DNA from: Sulfolobus islandicus Y.N.15.51
Lineage (GTDB): Archaea; Thermoproteota; Thermoprotei_A; Sulfolobales; Sulfolobaceae
Reading direction: 5' to 3'
DNA: 64,000 nucleotides
Assembly: GCF_000022485.1 (NCBI RefSeq)
Contig: NC_012623.1
Location: 806,001 to 870,000, forward strand
In this document: positions 13,427-21,440 of the stretch, in pieces
How the letters are laid out: each line of letters begins with the position of its first letter
How positions within the stretch are numbered: the stretch's first letter is position 1
Made by a program: the position numbers and the translations under genes
The notes under the pieces: generated by a model
What the model was told of the DNA's origin: nothing
Seen by the model: only the letters and a program-made list of their open reading frames with translations
Databases searched by the model: none

Positions 13427-13444
13427 ACTGGGGAGTTTATTCTA
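13423..13444. repeat. 22-bp direct repeat, right copy
   Basis: Partner of 4828-4849, 8.6 kb away in the same orientation. Confidence 0.7.
13424..13439. repeat. Palindrome TAAACTGGGGAGTTTA, site 3
   Basis: Both ends are stop codons: TAA for the wHTH gene (plus) and TTA, read as TAA on the minus strand, for the recombinase. With one base before and five after, it forms a 22-bp perfect direct repeat with 4828-4849. Confidence 0.65.
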
Positions 13445-14715
13445 AAATTTTAGGTGCATATTTTTCATAATACTGTTGAAGCTCTATGTCGCTTATAACA
13501 AAATAATGATCCTGTAAAATTCGGAACTGTTGTGGTGGAACTCTACCTTGTAATAGGTTCACAATCATAGGACTTGCTCCCTGCTTAATCATGTAAGACG
13601 CGAAGAAGCTACGTAAATCGTAAAGACGGAACTCTTTTCCCAGAACTTTTTTCATTGCCTCTTTAATTTCGGCTCTTAAGATGTCTTCCCTAAATGGGAA
13701 TAGTTTGAGTTTCCATTCCTCTATATTAATTCCTTGCTCGGGGTTTGCCGCTGCTAATTTCCTTATAGAATCTTCATATTTCCTTACGAATTCCTCACGG
13801 TATGGTAGATATTGTTCCTTAACCCATCTAGCCGTACTTTGGTGTAAGAACGATATATACGCCCTCTTAGTCTCGGACTCCTTCATAATTTTGATAATTC
13901 TGTGTTCCAGGTCTATCTGGTCTACCTTAAGGCCTAGAACTTCCCCTACTCTCAAGCCAGTTTCTATCAGTAATAGAAATAAAGCTCTAGCCCCCAAATC
14001 ATTAATATTATTGAAAATTTTCTTCAGAGTATCTAATGATAAAGGAGGAGGCTTGTAAATAAACTTCCTTTTAGGTAGTTTAAATGAATCGTAAAGTTCC
14101 TTAGCCACCCTGGAGTTCTTTGGCTTTATTATTTCCTTAATAAATAGTTTGAGAGTCGTTGCGTAATGCCTGGCCCTATTTAAGTTCTCACTCTGTAGAT
14201 CCAGCATATATTCCTTAATCCTTTCAGGAATAAGCTCATAGTTTAGGTCAGCTAATATTCTCCTTATATTTTGAATATGCTCATCTGCAGTCTTCTTAGC
14301 CCTATTTTCTCTAACAAATTTTTCAAATAATTCTATATCGTCTTTCGTAACGATATAAGTATTTGACGCAGACTTCAGATAATCGCCTAAATACTGCCAT
14401 ATTAAACTTATGAAAAAGTTACGGAATCCTTCATCTCTTACTGCTTTAATGATAACACTTAAAGCAGTAGTAGGATCTATTTCCACTATCCTAAATCCGT
14501 AAATTATGTCTGAGAGCTCCTCAATTGTAAGTAGTTCTGCAGCTTTCTCAATAATATCGTTAGGAATCCTCTGAATCTTTCCATTAATGTACCTATTTAA
14601 AGTACTCCATTCCTAATTTCTTCGCAGTATAAGATAGACCCTCTTTTTCTACAGCTTTCTTTAAAATTTGGATTTTTTTACTATCATCTATGTTTTCTAC
14701 GTTAATTTTTGGCAT
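13437..14715 (-). pseudogene. Tyrosine recombinase (integrase) with a frameshift
   Basis: About 425 codons. The N-terminal part from Met at 14715 (MPKINVENIDDSKKIQILKK, an HTH region) breaks at 14610: an extra A in GGA-A-TGG shifts the frame, which resumes WSTLNRYINGKIQRIP and continues through the 349-residue main body to 13437. The catalytic region has GLRVGEVLGL (Arg I), KESETKRAYI, YDLRSFFASYM (Arg II) and the Tyr in LQQYYEKYAP. The large size with N-terminal HTH suits the pNOB8 type rather than the SSV type. It faces the 3' end of tRNA-His 98 bp away, the usual integration site arrangement. Confidence 0.8.
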
Positions 14716-14813
14716 AAAATGTATATCCCCTCTGTGTATTCTACGTAGTTGCAAATTTAACGCAGACTGTTGCATGAAGGTAAAATTTCTCTAAAAGAAG
14801 AACGTAAAATAAG

Positions 14814-14888
14814 GGCTCGGGCCGGGATTTGAACCCGGGACTTCCGGGTCCACAGCCCGGCGCTCTTCCAGGCTGAGCTACCCGAGCC
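14814..14888 (-). tRNA. tRNA-His (GTG)
   Basis: Cloverleaf with anticodon GTG in GGGCTGTGGACCC. The acceptor stem has eight pairs, GGCTCGGG with CCCGAGCC, meaning the histidine-specific G-1:C73 pair is encoded. T-loop TTCAAAT. No intron. The integrase remnant lies immediately beyond its 3' end, so the tRNA 3' part is the probable attachment site. Confidence 0.95.
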
Positions 14889-14936: not shown

Positions 14937-16178
14937 TCATCTCTTTAACTGCTCCTTTACTATATCCAATATCTTTCTCGCTACCACCGTCTTAAAATTC
15001 TTTTCTATCTTCCTTACATTACCAGCCTTATCTATAACTATAACTTCATTATATTCAGATGAAAATCCTATATCCTTCCTCCTAACATTATTCGCCACAA
15101 TTAAATCAAATCCGCGTCTTCTCATCTTAATTTTGGCTTTCTCAATCAACTCCTCATCAGAATTTACAGTCTCTGCGGAAAAACCTACTAATAATATATT
15201 GTACTTCCTTATATATTCAGAAATTTTTGGTGTTCTTTCTAATTCAACTTTTGGTATTTCTGTATGGCTGTCTATCTTAGTATCAGATCTATTTTTAAAC
15301 TTATAATCAGCAGGAGCTCCCGCTAAAATTACAACACTAAACTTGTCATTTTCTATACTTTTTACAACTTCATTAAGCATCTCCTCAGTTGTCTCTATAC
15401 GCACTATATCCCTAACGTAAGGTTCTAGCTTAGAACTTATAGGACCAGAAATAACTCTAACATTAGCTCCTCTAAAATAAGCTTCATTCGCAATAGATAT
15501 CCCCATGGTTCCGCTACTGGGATTTGATATAAATCTGACAGAGTCTAAATACTCACGTGTAGGTCCAGCAGTAACTAGTATATTAAGTCCAGATAAGTCT
15601 TTTCCCCTCAAAATAAATGAGGTTATTCTGCCGGTTAAGTATTCTAATTCCGGATAGTGCGCTAAATCTCCTATTATATTTGGTTCTATTATCTCTACTC
15701 CTATCCCCTTTAACCTATTTACAGCATCTGCGACTTGAGGCGAAATATACATTTGTAAATGCATTGAAGGAACTATAATTAAGGGCTTTTTCATCCCAAC
15801 GAAATTCAACGCAGTAGCAGTTATTGGTGTATCAGCTATTCCATAAGCTATCTTTACTATAGTATTTGAAGTTGAGGGAGCTACAATCATTGCATCATTA
15901 TCTTCTGCCAACGAAACGTGTTCTAGGTCACCAGTAAGTTTAGTAAATACCTCATTCCCAGTAGCCCACTTAAACATCTCTGGAGAAATTAGTTTCGCTG
16001 CATCTTTACTCATGATAACGCTCACTTCTGCACCATTCCTCATTAAGCTTCTGGCCAAATCCAATGATTTATATATCGCTACACTTCCAGTTACTGCTAA
16101 TAATACCTTTCTATCAACTAGATCCTTACTTACACTCCCGATTATCTTCTTTGAAGGATGCGTCATGTATGTGTGCAT
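14937..16178 (-). CDS. coaBC: Bifunctional phosphopantothenoylcysteine synthetase/decarboxylase
   Basis: 413 residues, two fused enzymes of CoA synthesis. The N-terminal flavoprotein (CoaC) has KVLLAVTGSVAIYKS and the active-site His in LEHVSLAED, then VAPSTSNTI. The C-terminal CoaB starts near 195 with NILVTAGPTREYLDSVRFISNPSSGTMG in outline, and has the KFKNRSDTKI...PKVELERTPKI region for CTP/ATP-dependent ligation. The first 15 or so residues look dispensable; a downstream start is possible. Divergent from the Ard1-like gene. Confidence 0.9.
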   Translation of the reverse strand: MHTYMTHPSKKIIGSVSKDLVDRKVLLAVTGSVAIYKSLDLARSLMRNGAEVSVIMSKDAAKLISPEMFKWATGNEVFTKLTGDLEHVSLAEDNDAMIVAPSTSNTIVKIAYGIADTPITATALNFVGMKKPLIIVPSMHLQMYISPQVADAVNRLKGIGVEIIEPNIIGDLAHYPELEYLTGRITSFILRGKDLSGLNILVTAGPTREYLDSVRFISNPSSGTMGISIANEAYFRGANVRVISGPISSKLEPYVRDIVRIETTEEMLNEVVKSIENDKFSVVILAGAPADYKFKNRSDTKIDSHTEIPKVELERTPKISEYIRKYNILLVGFSAETVNSDEELIEKAKIKMRRRGFDLIVANNVRRKDIGFSSEYNEVIVIDKAGNVRKIEKNFKTVVARKILDIVKEQLKR

Positions 16179-16210: not shown

Positions 16211-16714
16211 ATGGAGCTCGCTGAAAAAGATAAAGGAAGAGATTTCACACTAAGAAATGCAAGAATGGATGATATAGACCAAATAATAAAAATAAATAGA
16301 CTAACACTACCAGAAAATTACCCATATTATTTTTTCATTGAACATTTAAAGGAATACGGCCTAGCATTTTTCGTAGCCGCAGTTGATGATAAAGTAGTAG
16401 GATATATAATGCCTAGAATAGAATGGGGATTTAGCAACATTAAGCAGCTACCCTCATTAGTTAGAAAAGGACATGTGGTTTCAATAGCGGTATTAGAAGA
16501 GTATAGAAGAAAAGGAATAGCTACTGCGTTATTAGAAGCCTCAATGAAAAGCATGAAAAATGACTATAATGCTGAGGAAATATATTTAGAAGTAAGAGTT
16601 ACCAACTATCCTGCAATTGCTCTATATGAGAAACTGAACTTCAAGAAAGTTAAGGTGCTAAAAGGTTACTATGCTGATGGAGAAGATGCCTATCTTATGG
16701 CAAGACAACTCTAG
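16211..16714 (+). CDS. N-terminal acetyltransferase, Ard1/RimI-like (GNAT)
   Basis: 167 residues beginning MELAEKDKGRDFTLRNAR. The GNAT acetyl-CoA loop is VLEEYRRKGIATALL and the C-terminal motif YPAIALYEKLNFKKVKVLKGYY. The sequence closely resembles the characterised S. solfataricus Ard1, which acetylates protein N-termini (including Alba) with relaxed specificity. An open frame extends to 16064, but ATG 16211, after a short AT-rich leader, gives the family length. It converges with the metallophosphoesterase gene. Confidence 0.92.
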   Translation: MELAEKDKGRDFTLRNARMDDIDQIIKINRLTLPENYPYYFFIEHLKEYGLAFFVAAVDDKVVGYIMPRIEWGFSNIKQLPSLVRKGHVVSIAVLEEYRRKGIATALLEASMKSMKNDYNAEEIYLEVRVTNYPAIALYEKLNFKKVKVLKGYYADGEDAYLMARQL

Positions 16715-17201
16715 CCAGTTTTACCTCACCTTTTTCAGAATCATATTTAGCATAATATCCCTTACTGAAATTACCGATAGATATAACCTTTGTGTTATTT
16801 ATATAATACTCCTCTTGAACCTCAGAATGAGCATGAAAAAGAATCTTAGGTTGATTAGACAATACCTTAGCCATAACCTCTTGAGAACCAACTTTAACAC
16901 CACTTATAATCCCAGTGATTGAGCCTTTAGGGGGATAATGTGAAATCACAATATTTGTTGAGAAATCTGAGGAGATATTGAAATACTTTTCGAGATATTT
17001 ATCAGTATTTCTTAAATATTTTAACACTGAAACATCCTCCATATCCCCAATTATGCCTATAAAATTTCTTATAAACTGAGGGCACTCAATATCCCCTAAT
17101 CCAATAAAAAGATCAGCATCGAACTCATTTACCAAATTTATAAGATCTAAATTACACGGAAATCCCGCTATGAGGATTATCTTTCTTGCTATACCATTCA
17201 T
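16695..17201 (-). CDS. Metallophosphoesterase-like protein lacking the first metal motif
   Basis: 168 residues with the calcineurin-like order of motifs: GLGDIE (35-40), GIIGDMED (about 49-56), SHYPPKG, and FHAHSEV followed by a terminal strand VISIGN. The first motif, normally D-x-H after strand 1, reads GFPCNLD (13-19), so one metal ligand set is missing. Last gene of a four-gene overlapping operon: its start lies 50 bp inside the CitG-like gene. Activity is uncertain; it could be a binding or regulatory version. Confidence 0.7.
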   Translation of the reverse strand: MNGIARKIILIAGFPCNLDLINLVNEFDADLFIGLGDIECPQFIRNFIGIIGDMEDVSVLKYLRNTDKYLEKYFNISSDFSTNIVISHYPPKGSITGIISGVKVGSQEVMAKVLSNQPKILFHAHSEVQEEYYINNTKVISIGNFSKGYYAKYDSEKGEVKLARVVLP

Positions 17202-18039
17202 CTAGATAATATATAGCTAATGAGGATGCTATAAGATCAGCTGTTGACCCTGGATTAAAATTGTTTCCAATCAAATACCCATTAAGCCACTCTAACTCAT
17301 TAGAAGATGGACAATCGTTAGAGGAAACAACTCTGGCAACCTTAGACACTTCTAATGCAGCATAAGCTCCATATTTTTTATAAATTAAAGTATCTGGATA
17401 ATTTGAGAGTATATACAAAAACGCTCTTTGCACATCTCTTTCAAATCCACACAGTCCTTCCTTTATAACGTTATATGCATCAAAGGTTATGGAATAATCA
17501 TTGACCATATTTAATGCTACTATATCATATTTAGATGAAAACTCCATAAGCGTAAAAAAGTCCACATTTTCTATCTCCCTATAATCCATTGAACTTAATC
17601 TACCTAAATATTTCAAATTTACCTCTTTTAATGCATCGAGAAACCATTTAGCCTCTAGAACTCCAAAACTCCTTATAAGTTTAGCAACTTTTTTCCTCAA
17701 TTCAAAAACGTTATCACTCTTAGCAGCCTCGTATGCAAAGGGCGCAATTAAAAGATAGGTACCAAATAACTGATATTCAAATCCAAATTTCCTAGAATGA
17801 TTTATCAATTCAACTAACGTATCATAAAGCCTCCTAATCCCCTTAAATCCCCTTACGCACAACTCTTTATAATACGTAGAAGAAATTAACGCACTTTTCA
17901 CTATATCAATATATTTCACATTAGCAAGATCTTGAAATCTACTTGCATTACCTGGTTTAAAAATATAGGATTCTACAAGCGAAGCTTGAGATAAAATATA
18001 AGAGACATCATTACAGTGGTCTAATAAACCCTCTGACAT
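17152..18039 (-). CDS. CitG/MdcB-like triphosphoribosyl-dephospho-CoA synthase family protein
   Basis: About 295 residues. Family signatures are KPGNASRFQDL near the N-terminus and NFNPGSTADLIASSLA near the C-terminus, both around the nucleotide pocket of the CitG fold. In bacteria CitG makes the prosthetic-group precursor of citrate lyase and malonate decarboxylase; neither enzyme is seen here. The start at ATG 18039 (MSEGLLDHCNDV) is chosen over 18054. It overlaps the preceding nucleotidyltransferase gene by 29 bp and the next gene by 50 bp. The substrate is unknown. Confidence 0.75.
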   Translation of the reverse strand: MSEGLLDHCNDVSYILSQASLVESYIFKPGNASRFQDLANVKYIDIVKSALISSTYYKELCVRGFKGIRRLYDTLVELINHSRKFGFEYQLFGTYLLIAPFAYEAAKSDNVFELRKKVAKLIRSFGVLEAKWFLDALKEVNLKYLGRLSSMDYREIENVDFFTLMEFSSKYDIVALNMVNDYSITFDAYNVIKEGLCGFERDVQRAFLYILSNYPDTLIYKKYGAYAALEVSKVARVVSSNDCPSSNELEWLNGYLIGNNFNPGSTADLIASSLAIYYLDEWYSKKDNPHSGISV

Positions 18040-18910
18040 CCCTATCACCAACAATCACAACGTTCTCCTTCTCACACCTCATTAATAAACCCTCAATCTC
18101 AGCTTGTCTCTCTCCAAATAAAACTGATGAAAAAATACCCTCATAACTTATTATTTTAGAAACGTTATATTCGTTATTACCTAAAACATACGCAATAGAA
18201 GGGTAAATTAAAGCTTCATAATCACCTGAAATATGAGCTCTAAATCTCACCTTACCTACTTTTTTACAAACATCATTACAGTATCTCCAAGGTTTATCAT
18301 CAGCGAAGAGTACAGAAATCTTCATACCCTTGTATATCCCTCGTCTCCTATTATCATATAATAAATTTGCGAAATCTATACCATAATTCTCATTAGCCTC
18401 AATAATCCACTCATAATCTTTTTCAAATCCGTCAAAAGATTCAATGAAATCTAAGGCGCCCTTGCGCCCATATATTATTATATCGATATCAGAATTGTTG
18501 TGATAATTATCTAGTAAAATAGATCCAGTAACACCTACATTATTTACTCTTACGTATTCTTCTATAAAATTAATAAGAGTATAGATTATATTATCCCTAG
18601 CACTTTTCTTTAGTATCTCTTGTAATCTTTCTTCAGGTTTTAAATGTCTAGAAATATTAGATAGAAGAACTATAGGAAAGGATGCATCATAACAACTCTC
18701 AAAACTAAACATTTGATTAATCTTAATAAGATTATGGACACCATATTTCTTAAATATCCTCTCATATCCTTTCCAAAGACCTTTACCGGTATAAACATAT
18801 TTCAAATAAGCAAAAACATAACCGGGGGGATTATAGTTAGTTAAAATGGTATATACATTGCCCTCTTTATCGATTATAATGTCTCTATCAAAGAAATAAT
18901 CTCTTCCCAT
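18011..18910 (-). CDS. Predicted nucleotidyltransferase (COG1665-like)
   Basis: 299 residues. The pol-beta-type nucleotidyltransferase signature is GVTGSILLDNYHNNSDIDIIIYG (GS...DxD in outline) at about 147-170, with a third acidic residue probably in ISVLFADD. An N-terminal domain of about 140 residues precedes it. Overlaps the DUF1464 gene by 37 bp and the CitG-like gene by 29 bp. Bacterial CitG products are attached to protein by CitX, also a nucleotidyl-type transferase, so this protein could play that part (inference). Confidence 0.7.
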   Translation of the reverse strand: MGRDYFFDRDIIIDKEGNVYTILTNYNPPGYVFAYLKYVYTGKGLWKGYERIFKKYGVHNLIKINQMFSFESCYDASFPIVLLSNISRHLKPEERLQEILKKSARDNIIYTLINFIEEYVRVNNVGVTGSILLDNYHNNSDIDIIIYGRKGALDFIESFDGFEKDYEWIIEANENYGIDFANLLYDNRRRGIYKGMKISVLFADDKPWRYCNDVCKKVGKVRFRAHISGDYEALIYPSIAYVLGNNEYNVSKIISYEGIFSSVLFGERQAEIEGLLMRCEKENVVIVGDRDVRGFIRPL

Positions 18911-19782
18911 TCTTTCAACCTCACAAACGAGATTGGAGTCCCACTGCTATCCAACATGTTAATATAATGACGTAAAATTCCACCAAAGTATGCATTAGCA
19001 ATAAACGCTGCACCGACTGCAGCCTCTTTAAACTTAAATTCATATTTCTCACCAATCTCTAAAGAATTCTTATTATATCCAGATACTATAATTGGTAACT
19101 TATACTTCTTACTATGCCATTCCACTACAATCCTAACAAGCTCTAAATTCCTACCAACACTATAAACAGTTGACTTATCAATCCTAGAATATTTATGAAG
19201 AAGATAAGCTATCTCTCCATCTAAGCCAGATAAATATGTCCCACCATAGCCATCAACAATTTTACCGTTAATAACGATAACAATTGCTGCAAATCTTCTT
19301 CCCATTTCAACTAGAATAAAATCATCTAGTTTAAGATAAACCCTATAGAAAAACGCAGAAGCAACTTTGTCTGCAGTACCCTTATCTATGACGTTTATCT
19401 TCCTTTCATGAGGTACACTGTCTAGCTCAATTACTGAGGGAATCGTAAAAGAATTGTATAAAGGCAAATATTGCTTTGAAGCTAATAGAAAATCCCTTAA
19501 AGGACCGTGAGATAATGGATCTTTTAGCGTAAGAAGAAATATTTCTCTATTGTCAATTTTTCTAATGTTATAAAAAGGTAAACCATGACCAGAAGGTAAA
19601 GCCACTGCTTTAGGTCTATAATCCGCTATCAATTTAGCTAAAATTATAGCGTTTTTCTCTACAAGATCTGTAGGTATCTCAAAATATTTAACCAAATTCC
19701 CCATCTCATCAACAAAGGCAAAAGCGTAACTTTCACTACCTGGATCAATACCGATATAAATCATCAGTGGCTGCCTCGCCAT
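18874..19782 (-). CDS. ASKHA-fold kinase-like protein, DUF1464 family
   Basis: 302 residues with an actin/Hsp70/sugar-kinase nucleotide fold: first phosphate loop IYIGIDPGSESYAFAFVD (8-25), a second strand-loop FILVEMGRRFAAIVIVINGKIVDG near 157-180, and an adenosine motif AAVGAAFIANA near the end. The family is annotated as butyrate-kinase-like or unknown. First gene of the operon with the nucleotidyltransferase, CitG-like and phosphoesterase-like genes. The reaction is not known. Confidence 0.7.
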   Translation of the reverse strand: MARQPLMIYIGIDPGSESYAFAFVDEMGNLVKYFEIPTDLVEKNAIILAKLIADYRPKAVALPSGHGLPFYNIRKIDNREIFLLTLKDPLSHGPLRDFLLASKQYLPLYNSFTIPSVIELDSVPHERKINVIDKGTADKVASAFFYRVYLKLDDFILVEMGRRFAAIVIVINGKIVDGYGGTYLSGLDGEIAYLLHKYSRIDKSTVYSVGRNLELVRIVVEWHSKKYKLPIIVSGYNKNSLEIGEKYEFKFKEAAVGAAFIANAYFGGILRHYINMLDSSGTPISFVRLKEWEEIISLIETL

Positions 19783-19915
19783 ATCATTATTTCAAAACGG
19801 CTTTTCATCATCATCAAAATCAAGATAGTGCAACACAAATATATAAAGCATAGTATTCTGACACCTTACCTAAGGCTTTATATCACCTTGATATATAAAC
19901 TAAGAATCTTCAACG

Positions 19916-19988: not shown

Positions 19989-20084
19989 AATTTCACGTAT
20001 GCATGAGTATCTACTAATAACTTACTTAAAAAGCCTTCGCTCGTTGAAATCCTCAGATAATATATAATAAATTAAATGAAATGG

Positions 20085-20184
20085 TAGCGGGGCCTGGATT
20101 TGAACCAGGGACCTCGGGGTTTCCCAACGCGTGCTTTAAAGAGTATATGAGCCCCGCGGCCTTACCAGGCTAGCCCACCCCGCT
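20085..20184 (-). tRNA. Initiator tRNA-Met (CAT) with intron
   Basis: Acceptor AGCGGGG/CCCCGCT gives the A1:U72 pair, and the anticodon stem CGGGG/CCCCG contains the three G:C pairs that mark initiator tRNA. An intron of about 25 bases, beginning after CTCATA and ending before ACCCCG, interrupts position 37/38 as in most archaeal tRNA introns. The 5' end and flank are duplicated in tandem (20178-20202). Confidence 0.92.
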
Positions 20185-20427
20185 ATTCTACCCCGCTATT
20201 TTAAGATATAATTTGTAGTACCTTTAAAGTTATTGTTATCCTTTCCGCTAGAATAACTTACTCAAACTTAATTCTTGAGCTATTCGTGTCTTCATTATAA
20301 ATTCATAGCTATCTAAATAATAAGATAGAGTTACTTATGCACCAAATAAAAATATGCTACAACTATCAAGAAGATAGCGAAAAGAGGGCCACGTTTAATC
20401 CTCACGAAAATATTTATTAAATAAAAA

Positions 20428-20893
20428 TGTCATTACATTTTTAGCTCATGAGTTATTAAGCAGTTATGAAGGAGTAATTGTTAGTTTATCGCCAGAAAGA
20501 GTGCCAACAGTCTTAAGAGGAATGATACCAGCTATAATGATAGGAAGGGCTAAAGCGTTATCTATTTAATAAACAGGGACCAAATACGATGCGTACAAAA
20601 CACTTTCAAAAATTGGTAAAAAGAAGGCCTTATTAGAAAAAGTTCAACTTAATGTCACTCCAGAAAATGAGACTATAAGACTAGCAGTATCTGTTGGGAA
20701 ATTAGTTATTAATAATCAGACTAAAGCCAAGATTTGTTAGGACATGATTTACTAGTAACAACTAAAGATGATTACGTCATTTACGCTGGTAGAGTCAATC
20801 CTAATTAGACTAGAGTAGTTGTAGGGCAAGGAGGCTATGCTGCTACTAAAATACATAGGCAAAAAGTTCTACACAAGAATTCAGGGAATACTT
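20428..20893 (+). pseudogene. Decayed protein gene with several in-frame stops
   Basis: A protein-like reading can be followed: FLAHELLSSYEGVIVSLSPE...RGMIPAIMIGRAKALSI, stop, TGTKYDAYKTLSKIGKKKAL...NVTPENETIRLAVSVGKLVI, a stop and frameshift at about 20737, GHDLLVTTKDDYVIYAGRVN, stop, TRVVVGQGGYAATKIHRQ, stop. At least four disablements. The family is not recognised. No mobile element is seen beside it, so this looks like slow decay of a chromosomal gene between two tRNA genes. Confidence 0.6.
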
Positions 20894-21440
20894 AGAAACA
20901 CATTAAATACTATAGCTCCGTTCCTTCTTTTTTATTACTTAGAAATTTATTTAGAAATTTATCACTATATTATCTATTAAATTTCTCTTTGCAATTTTAT
21001 TCTATCGAGTCCAGTTTTCTCACTATATAAGTAGATAATTAAGAATGCTCTTTTTCCAGTTACAAGGTAAATATTGACATACAAGAAAAGCACCATAAGT
21101 TGTACTTAAACTAGATCGTAGGATGATCTAGGGATTCTCTACATCGAGTCTATTTAACTGAGGAGTTTAAGGGCTTAAGGAATCACTTTAACTTTTTCGT
21201 CGAGGTTCATGAAATAACTCATAATATTAAGGATCTTTTTACGTCTAATCATATGCCTCTTCGGATGAACTAAATCATGCTCTAAAATCAAGAATAACAT
21301 ATAAAGAAATCTTTCTACGATGAGATTTAAATAGTGGAAAATACAATAGGGATTTTGGCCTTAGACTGAATAGAAGCAATTAACACTTTGTTACAGTTAT
21401 ACTAATTGGAAATATAATCAAAATAATAGAAATTTATAAG
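20894..21440. other. Intergenic stretch with possible further gene debris
   Basis: AT-rich. A 38-codon plus-strand frame near 21130-21270 (SLHRVYLTEEFKGLRNHFNF...) looks protein-like but has no start; it may be the remains of another gene. A sequence near 21163 (AACTGAGGAGTTTA) resembles the 16-bp palindrome with changes. The tRNA-Ser terminator region is presumably at the right end. Confidence 0.4.

Follow-up and report, generated by a model that had tools for sequence, protein, structure and literature searches.

CitG transfers the 5-triphosphoribosyl group of ATP to a hydroxyl, releasing adenine and leaving an alpha linkage. In the next step, CitX or MdcG links the 5-phosphate to another hydroxyl through a phosphodiester, and pyrophosphate is lost. 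Methanopterin contains the two bonds found in the CitG/CitX products, since it carries an alpha-ribosyl-5-phosphate on deoxyribitol and then a phosphodiester to hydroxyglutarate. Here we analyse a four-gene operon with a CitG-like gene and a nucleotidyltransferase (NT) gene in a stretch of 64,000 nucleotides from Sulfolobus islandicus Y.N.15.51 (NC_012623.1, positions 806,001 to 870,000), referred to below as the window; its source genome comprises 2.85 Mb in two contigs. We propose, with a probability of about 0.7, that this operon builds the non-pterin side chain of sulfopterin, the tetrahydromethanopterin (H4MPT)-like one-carbon (C1) carrier of Sulfolobaceae.

Among the closest known systems is the CitG-like gene of methylotroph H4MPT clusters, which belongs to the same PF01874 family and has the same pathway neighbours. 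Unlike the Sulfolobaceae proteins, it keeps the NTxxG motif, and its clusters contain no NT. We found such a gene in four proteobacterial plasmids from four genera, inside an H4MPT cluster with the order RFAPS (RFAP synthase), mtdB (methylene-H4MPT dehydrogenase), ATP-grasp or hypothetical, mch, RimK-type ligase or hypothetical, CitG-like, fae. As this order matches the published methylotroph order mch-orf5-orf7-fae (PMC3615186), we identify the bacterial CitG-like gene with Orf7, by gene position only; the H4MPT link of Orf7 has already been published, as gene context. CitG/CitX and MdcB/MdcG likewise combine a CitG-family enzyme with a transferase. MdcG and the NT of the window share a G...SDIDxxx signature and are not alignable over their full length; the window genome differs from both systems in having no carrier protein or CitX, and its CitG-like protein falls in a different clade. 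The only solved homologue found, both by sequence and by fold, is a putative triphosphoribosyl-dephospho-CoA synthase from Archaeoglobus fulgidus (PDB 3h9p; CoA, coenzyme A), with 18-20% identity. RFAPS, TIGR00284 (dihydropteroate-synthase-like protein), DUF447 and MptN co-cluster with relatives of CitG and NT and act on other steps. An inventory from 2011 put the number of unknown proteins in methanopterin synthesis at about seven and the steps of its non-pterin part at nine or more (PMC3087415). In an incomplete search of the open literature, we found no paper on this operon, none naming DUF1464 or COG1767, and none joining CitG with methanopterin.

The operon and its upstream element are laid out as follows:

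18874-19782, minus strand: DUF1464 (PF07318), ASKHA-like, operon gene 1 (8.5e-104, 347.7 bits against a cut-off of 23.5)
18011-18910, minus strand: NT, Pol-beta-type with a C-terminal OB-like domain (PF01909, 4e-6, 27.5 bits against a cut-off of 21)
17152-18039 (ATG start), minus strand: CitG-like protein, proposed ribosyl-phosphate transferase (PF01874, 6.2e-45, 154.4 bits)
16695-17201, minus strand: calcineurin-type phosphoesterase-like protein (Metallophos_3, PF14582, 7.5e-10)
19839-19848, minus strand: putative TATA-box-like element upstream of the operon, TTTATATAT, by direct sequence reading

The four open reading frames (ORFs), which the initial annotation had described as overlapping members of these families, are confirmed at these coordinates. 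DUF1464 and NT overlap by 37 bp, NT and the CitG-like gene by 29 bp (44 bp if the alternative TTG start at 18054 is used), and the CitG-like and phosphoesterase genes by 50 bp; among the 47 window ORFs of at least 140 amino acids, only four same-strand neighbour pairs overlap by more than 25 bp, and three of these pairs are in the operon. The overlapping order DUF1464-NT-CitG-phosphoesterase is kept in all six Sulfolobaceae genomes examined, with overlaps of 34-40, 32-59 and 47-68 bp in operon order, and the same operon occurs in genus- and family-level relatives of the window genome. Minimum pairwise protein identities within the family are 53% for DUF1464, 46% for NT, 36% for the CitG-like protein and 35% for the phosphoesterase. 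Because the overlaps recur in six genomes at 35-53% minimum identity, they are real and not an accident of annotation, and the unit is a conserved operon, probably with translational coupling. The longest DUF1464 reading, from 19782, is probably not the one used: most orthologues start at an internal Met, which makes 19764 the preferred start. CitG, DUF1464 and NT are each single-copy in the window genome.

The operon very likely belongs to an H4MPT-type cofactor pathway, because the CitG-like, NT and DUF1464 families travel with RFAPS, TIGR00284 and DUF447 and, where present, with Mch, Fwd, Mtd and MptN. We took a census of neighbours at 80 archaeal CitG loci from named genomes (by a seven-row alignment scan) and at five plasmid loci; neighbours were clustered and cluster representatives identified by NCBIfam or Pfam. 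NT occurs at 56 of these loci, at 52 of them within three genes of CitG. Other neighbours are FwdA (27 loci), Mch (21), MptN-type ligase (13), TIGR00284 (12), Mtd (7) and DUF447 (7). The Asgard archaea Odin- and Baldrarchaeota show the order Mtd-Fwd-Mch-MptN-CitG, Hadesarchaea show CitG-DUF447-dihydromethanopterin reductase-TIGR00284, and a haloarchaeal plasmid carries a CitG-DUF447 pair. In two Bathyarchaeia (L161 and L170), TIGR00284-RFAPS-DUF447-NT adjoins CitG, which ties NT to the H4MPT pathway as well. The Bathyarchaeia loci also include 28 with a gene for the S-component of an energy-coupling factor (ECF) transporter; at 27 of these (L112, L118, L120, L123 and others) it lies at most three genes from CitG, mostly between NT and CitG, and it might import a cofactor precursor.

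DUF1464 reaches the same pathway by another way. It is not linked to CitG outside Sulfolobaceae; it adjoins an RFAPS-family gene in six other genomes (G012, G017, G019, G020, G049 and G060), in G017 with DUF447 next after the pair, and lies at most 2 kb from one in G002 and G044. Several of these adjacent RFAPS-like genes score near or under the family cut-off, and the low-scoring ones may be paralogues. Thus, of the neighbours that had been expected to be conserved together, CitG and NT do stay together, and DUF1464 outside Sulfolobaceae pairs with RFAPS instead. The GxDPG phosphate-loop motif of DUF1464 is invariant. Profile comparison did not support kinship with the ASKHA-like methanofuran enzyme of H4MPT clusters (probability 0.3%), and this candidate was rejected.

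Co-occurrence agrees with the gene neighbourhoods. Across 101 Thermoproteota genomes (counts given as both, first only, second only, neither), CitG and RFAPS give 32/9/3/57 (Fisher 7e-15), CitG and NT 39/2/6/54 (Fisher 4e-19), and DUF1464 and RFAPS 25/1/10/65; DUF1464 is thus found in 26 genomes, 25 of which have an RFAPS match of at least 80 bits. Of 14 named control genomes, four have RFAPS and the same four have DUF447: M. jannaschii, H. volcanii, S. acidocaldarius and M. acetivorans. Matches to CitG appear in these four archaea and in E. coli, where it is the true CitG.

What, then, would the operon act on in Sulfolobus? The window genome has RFAPS (236 bits), TIGR00284 (726 bits) and DUF447. 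Sulfopterin is the H4MPT-like C1 carrier of Sulfolobus: S. solfataricus is reported to use it, with a serine hydroxymethyltransferase selective for sulfopterin (PMC3697235). Moreover, Sulfolobus RFAPS clusters with the methanogen enzymes (PMC6787355). Taken together, these observations make sulfopterin the most likely target of the operon. Mch was absent from Sulfolobales, the window genome included, in a genome search, and the carrier therefore probably works outside any H4MPT-type Wood-Ljungdahl route.

The CitG-like protein belongs to the CitG superfamily by its PF01874 score and by its fold, as the predicted structure (predicted local distance difference test, pLDDT, 87) matches 3h9p with a TM score of 0.85. 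In a tree of 26 sequences, E. coli and E. faecium CitG and two MdcB proteins form one group (support 100/100), and the Sulfolobaceae sequences form a separate one (100/99); the tree has long branches and its root is drawn at the midpoint only. The KPGN, PD and NPGxTAD invariant residues are retained in the Sulfolobaceae proteins. In the NT, the active-site signature GS-x(8-10)-DxD is intact (G126, G129, S130, D141 and D143), and its G, G, S, D and D are invariant across 26 relatives. The AlphaFold model of the NT (pLDDT 81) has a C-terminal OB-like domain (best Z 7-8) and no close whole-chain match in PDB, which we do not count as a sign of a new fold. A search of 72,556 plasmids for the NT returned two Streptomyces records only. 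Some genomes have several paralogues of the NT each (L117, L130, L151, L148 and L154; G104-G109), often paired beside CitG or TIGR00284.

In the pathway we propose, the CitG-like protein would transfer the 5-phospho- or triphosphoribosyl group of ATP, with loss of adenine, to the terminal hydroxyl of the aminophenyl-deoxyribitol core, and the linkage formed would be alpha-ribosyl as in methanopterin. By analogy with CitG, such a ribosyl transferase role has a little less than an even chance. The NT would then use the ribosyl triphosphate as a nucleoside triphosphate-like donor, joining it through a phosphodiester to an acceptor hydroxyl, which in methanopterin is that of hydroxyglutarate; pyrophosphate would be set free, as in the MdcG step that follows MdcB. 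This assignment, again by analogy, is tentative and less likely than not. The other two assignments are the weakest. The phosphoesterase might strip the 5-phosphate inherited from the RFAP before ribosylation, or surplus phosphate afterwards, a doubtful role; DUF1464 might be a kinase-like helper at the RFAP or ribitol stage, which is equally doubtful. The phosphoesterase-like gene stands beside CitG only in Sulfolobaceae, and its calcineurin-type metal ligand set (D-x-H, GD, GNH, H, GHxH) is incomplete: in the alignment of the six Sulfolobaceae, D-x-H has become xxPC and GNH has become G[DE]M, while GD, H and HxH are retained. The carrier of dephospho-H4MPT bacteria has neither the phosphate nor hydroxyglutarate (PMC8141765), and their clusters contain the CitG-like gene and no NT, as the mechanism expects.

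The operon could encode long-unassigned late enzymes of methanopterin-type cofactor synthesis: an ATP-consuming alpha-ribosyl transferase of the CitG family, followed by an MdcG-like NT that builds the ribosyl-5-phosphodiester. The two-step logic of CitG and CitX would then serve both for a CoA group attached to a protein and for a pterin cofactor that is free. In Sulfolobaceae, whose CitG-like proteins have lost NTxxG, the side chain would be a variant one, made by new chemistry. We put this forward as a possibility on the less probable side. Three families of unassigned function, DUF1464, NT-OB and archaeal CitG-like, can now be placed in a specific pathway of Sulfolobus, Bathyarchaeia and Asgard archaea, with reactions open to testing. 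The database name triphosphoribosyl-dephospho-CoA synthase, misleading for the archaeal CitG-like group, would also be corrected.

Several observations weigh against a sulfopterin side-chain operon as we describe it. The Sulfolobaceae operon has no known pterin gene adjacent to it; such genes do exist at other places in the genome, and the link runs through relatives and co-occurrence. The co-occurrence counts are phylogenetically non-independent, and the Fisher values overstate independence because whole families lack all these genes. Nine genomes have CitG without a clear RFAPS, and eight of the nine have Mch. Two small Hadesarchaea assemblies have CitG and lack the NT. In Bathyarchaeia and Asgard archaea, a genome has several NT paralogues, exceeding the need of one step. 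Comparison of the NT with a single MdcG sequence by hhalign gave a probability of 5% with only the SDID motif aligned, so that homology to MdcG is unsupported by profile comparison. The OB-like domain of the NT model could bind nucleic acid instead. Finally, the NTxxG motif is lost in all five Sulfolobaceae CitG-like sequences compared; it is present in E. coli and E. faecium CitG, in two MdcB and in most H4MPT-type relatives, two of which retain its N and not its T.

This last point carries the alternative that survives best. As NTxxG is lost, the donor or the reaction may differ in Sulfolobaceae, and the chemistry of their CitG-like proteins may have changed. The protein could then belong to the C1-cofactor pathway without transferring ribosyl, acting at another step or as a non-catalytic partner, and the side chain of sulfopterin would differ from that of methanopterin. 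The motif was lost while the operon stayed intact, the stem branch of the Sulfolobaceae group is long (1.54 changes per column), and the operon has a Sulfolobaceae-specific partner in the phosphoesterase. However, KPGN, PD, NPGxTAD and the fold are retained, and conservation of the gene across the family is no lower than 36% identity. We consider this version rather unlikely.

The initial annotation had read the operon as a CoA-derived cofactor system, in which triphosphoribosyl-dephospho-CoA would be the product of the CitG-like protein and would be placed by the NT on some archaeal carrier protein, with DUF1464 and the phosphoesterase in supporting or recycling roles. The idea of a cofactor operon with a CitG-then-NT logic is a good one, and the pair is conserved, with 52 loci where no more than three genes separate the positions of NT and CitG; a cofactor that is CoA-derived or protein-bound is very unlikely. 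The pairing of a CitG-like gene with an NT does resemble MdcB and MdcG, and coaBC lies downstream of the operon. But the CitG-like protein reaches 14.9 bits with TIGR03125, the CitG equivalog model (cut-off 272.3), stands outside the CitG and MdcB group, and has its relatives in H4MPT clusters, all of which speak against synthesis of triphosphoribosyl-dephospho-CoA. The citrate-lyase/malonate-decarboxylase acyl carrier protein (ACP; PF06857) and CitX (PF03802) are absent from the window genome, and the same searches find both in the control E. coli. With ACP and CitX missing and a pterin gene context, we rejected CoA-linked protein modification. The nearness of coaBC, taken earlier as a hint of CoA, is not constant: two genes separate the Ard1/coaBC flank from the operon in G036/L032, so that coaBC is a neighbour outside the unit.

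RNA modification by an NT-OB protein acting on RNA or tRNA, with no cofactor involved, would suit the OB-like domain, weak Foldseek matches of the NT model to poly(A) polymerases and the tRNA genes near the operon, but is most improbable, as NT relatives cluster with RFAPS, DUF447, Mch and formylmethanofuran dehydrogenase and no RNA-processing gene was recognised among the main neighbour clusters of the CitG loci.

Around the operon, Ard1/RimI converges with the phosphoesterase gene (stop at 16714, 20 bp of overlap), and coaBC follows beyond it at 14937-16178. On the other side, an intron-containing tRNA-Ser(CGA) lies at 20082-20185 on the minus strand; a default ARAGORN run missed it, and a run allowing introns found it. 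A decayed coding remnant occupies 20400-20920, where one frame is protein-like and broken by several stops. An archaeal-type tyrosine integrase (13437-14486, minus strand; PF16795/PF00589) is located near tRNA-His (14813-14887), and the two possibly mark the edge of an integrated element.

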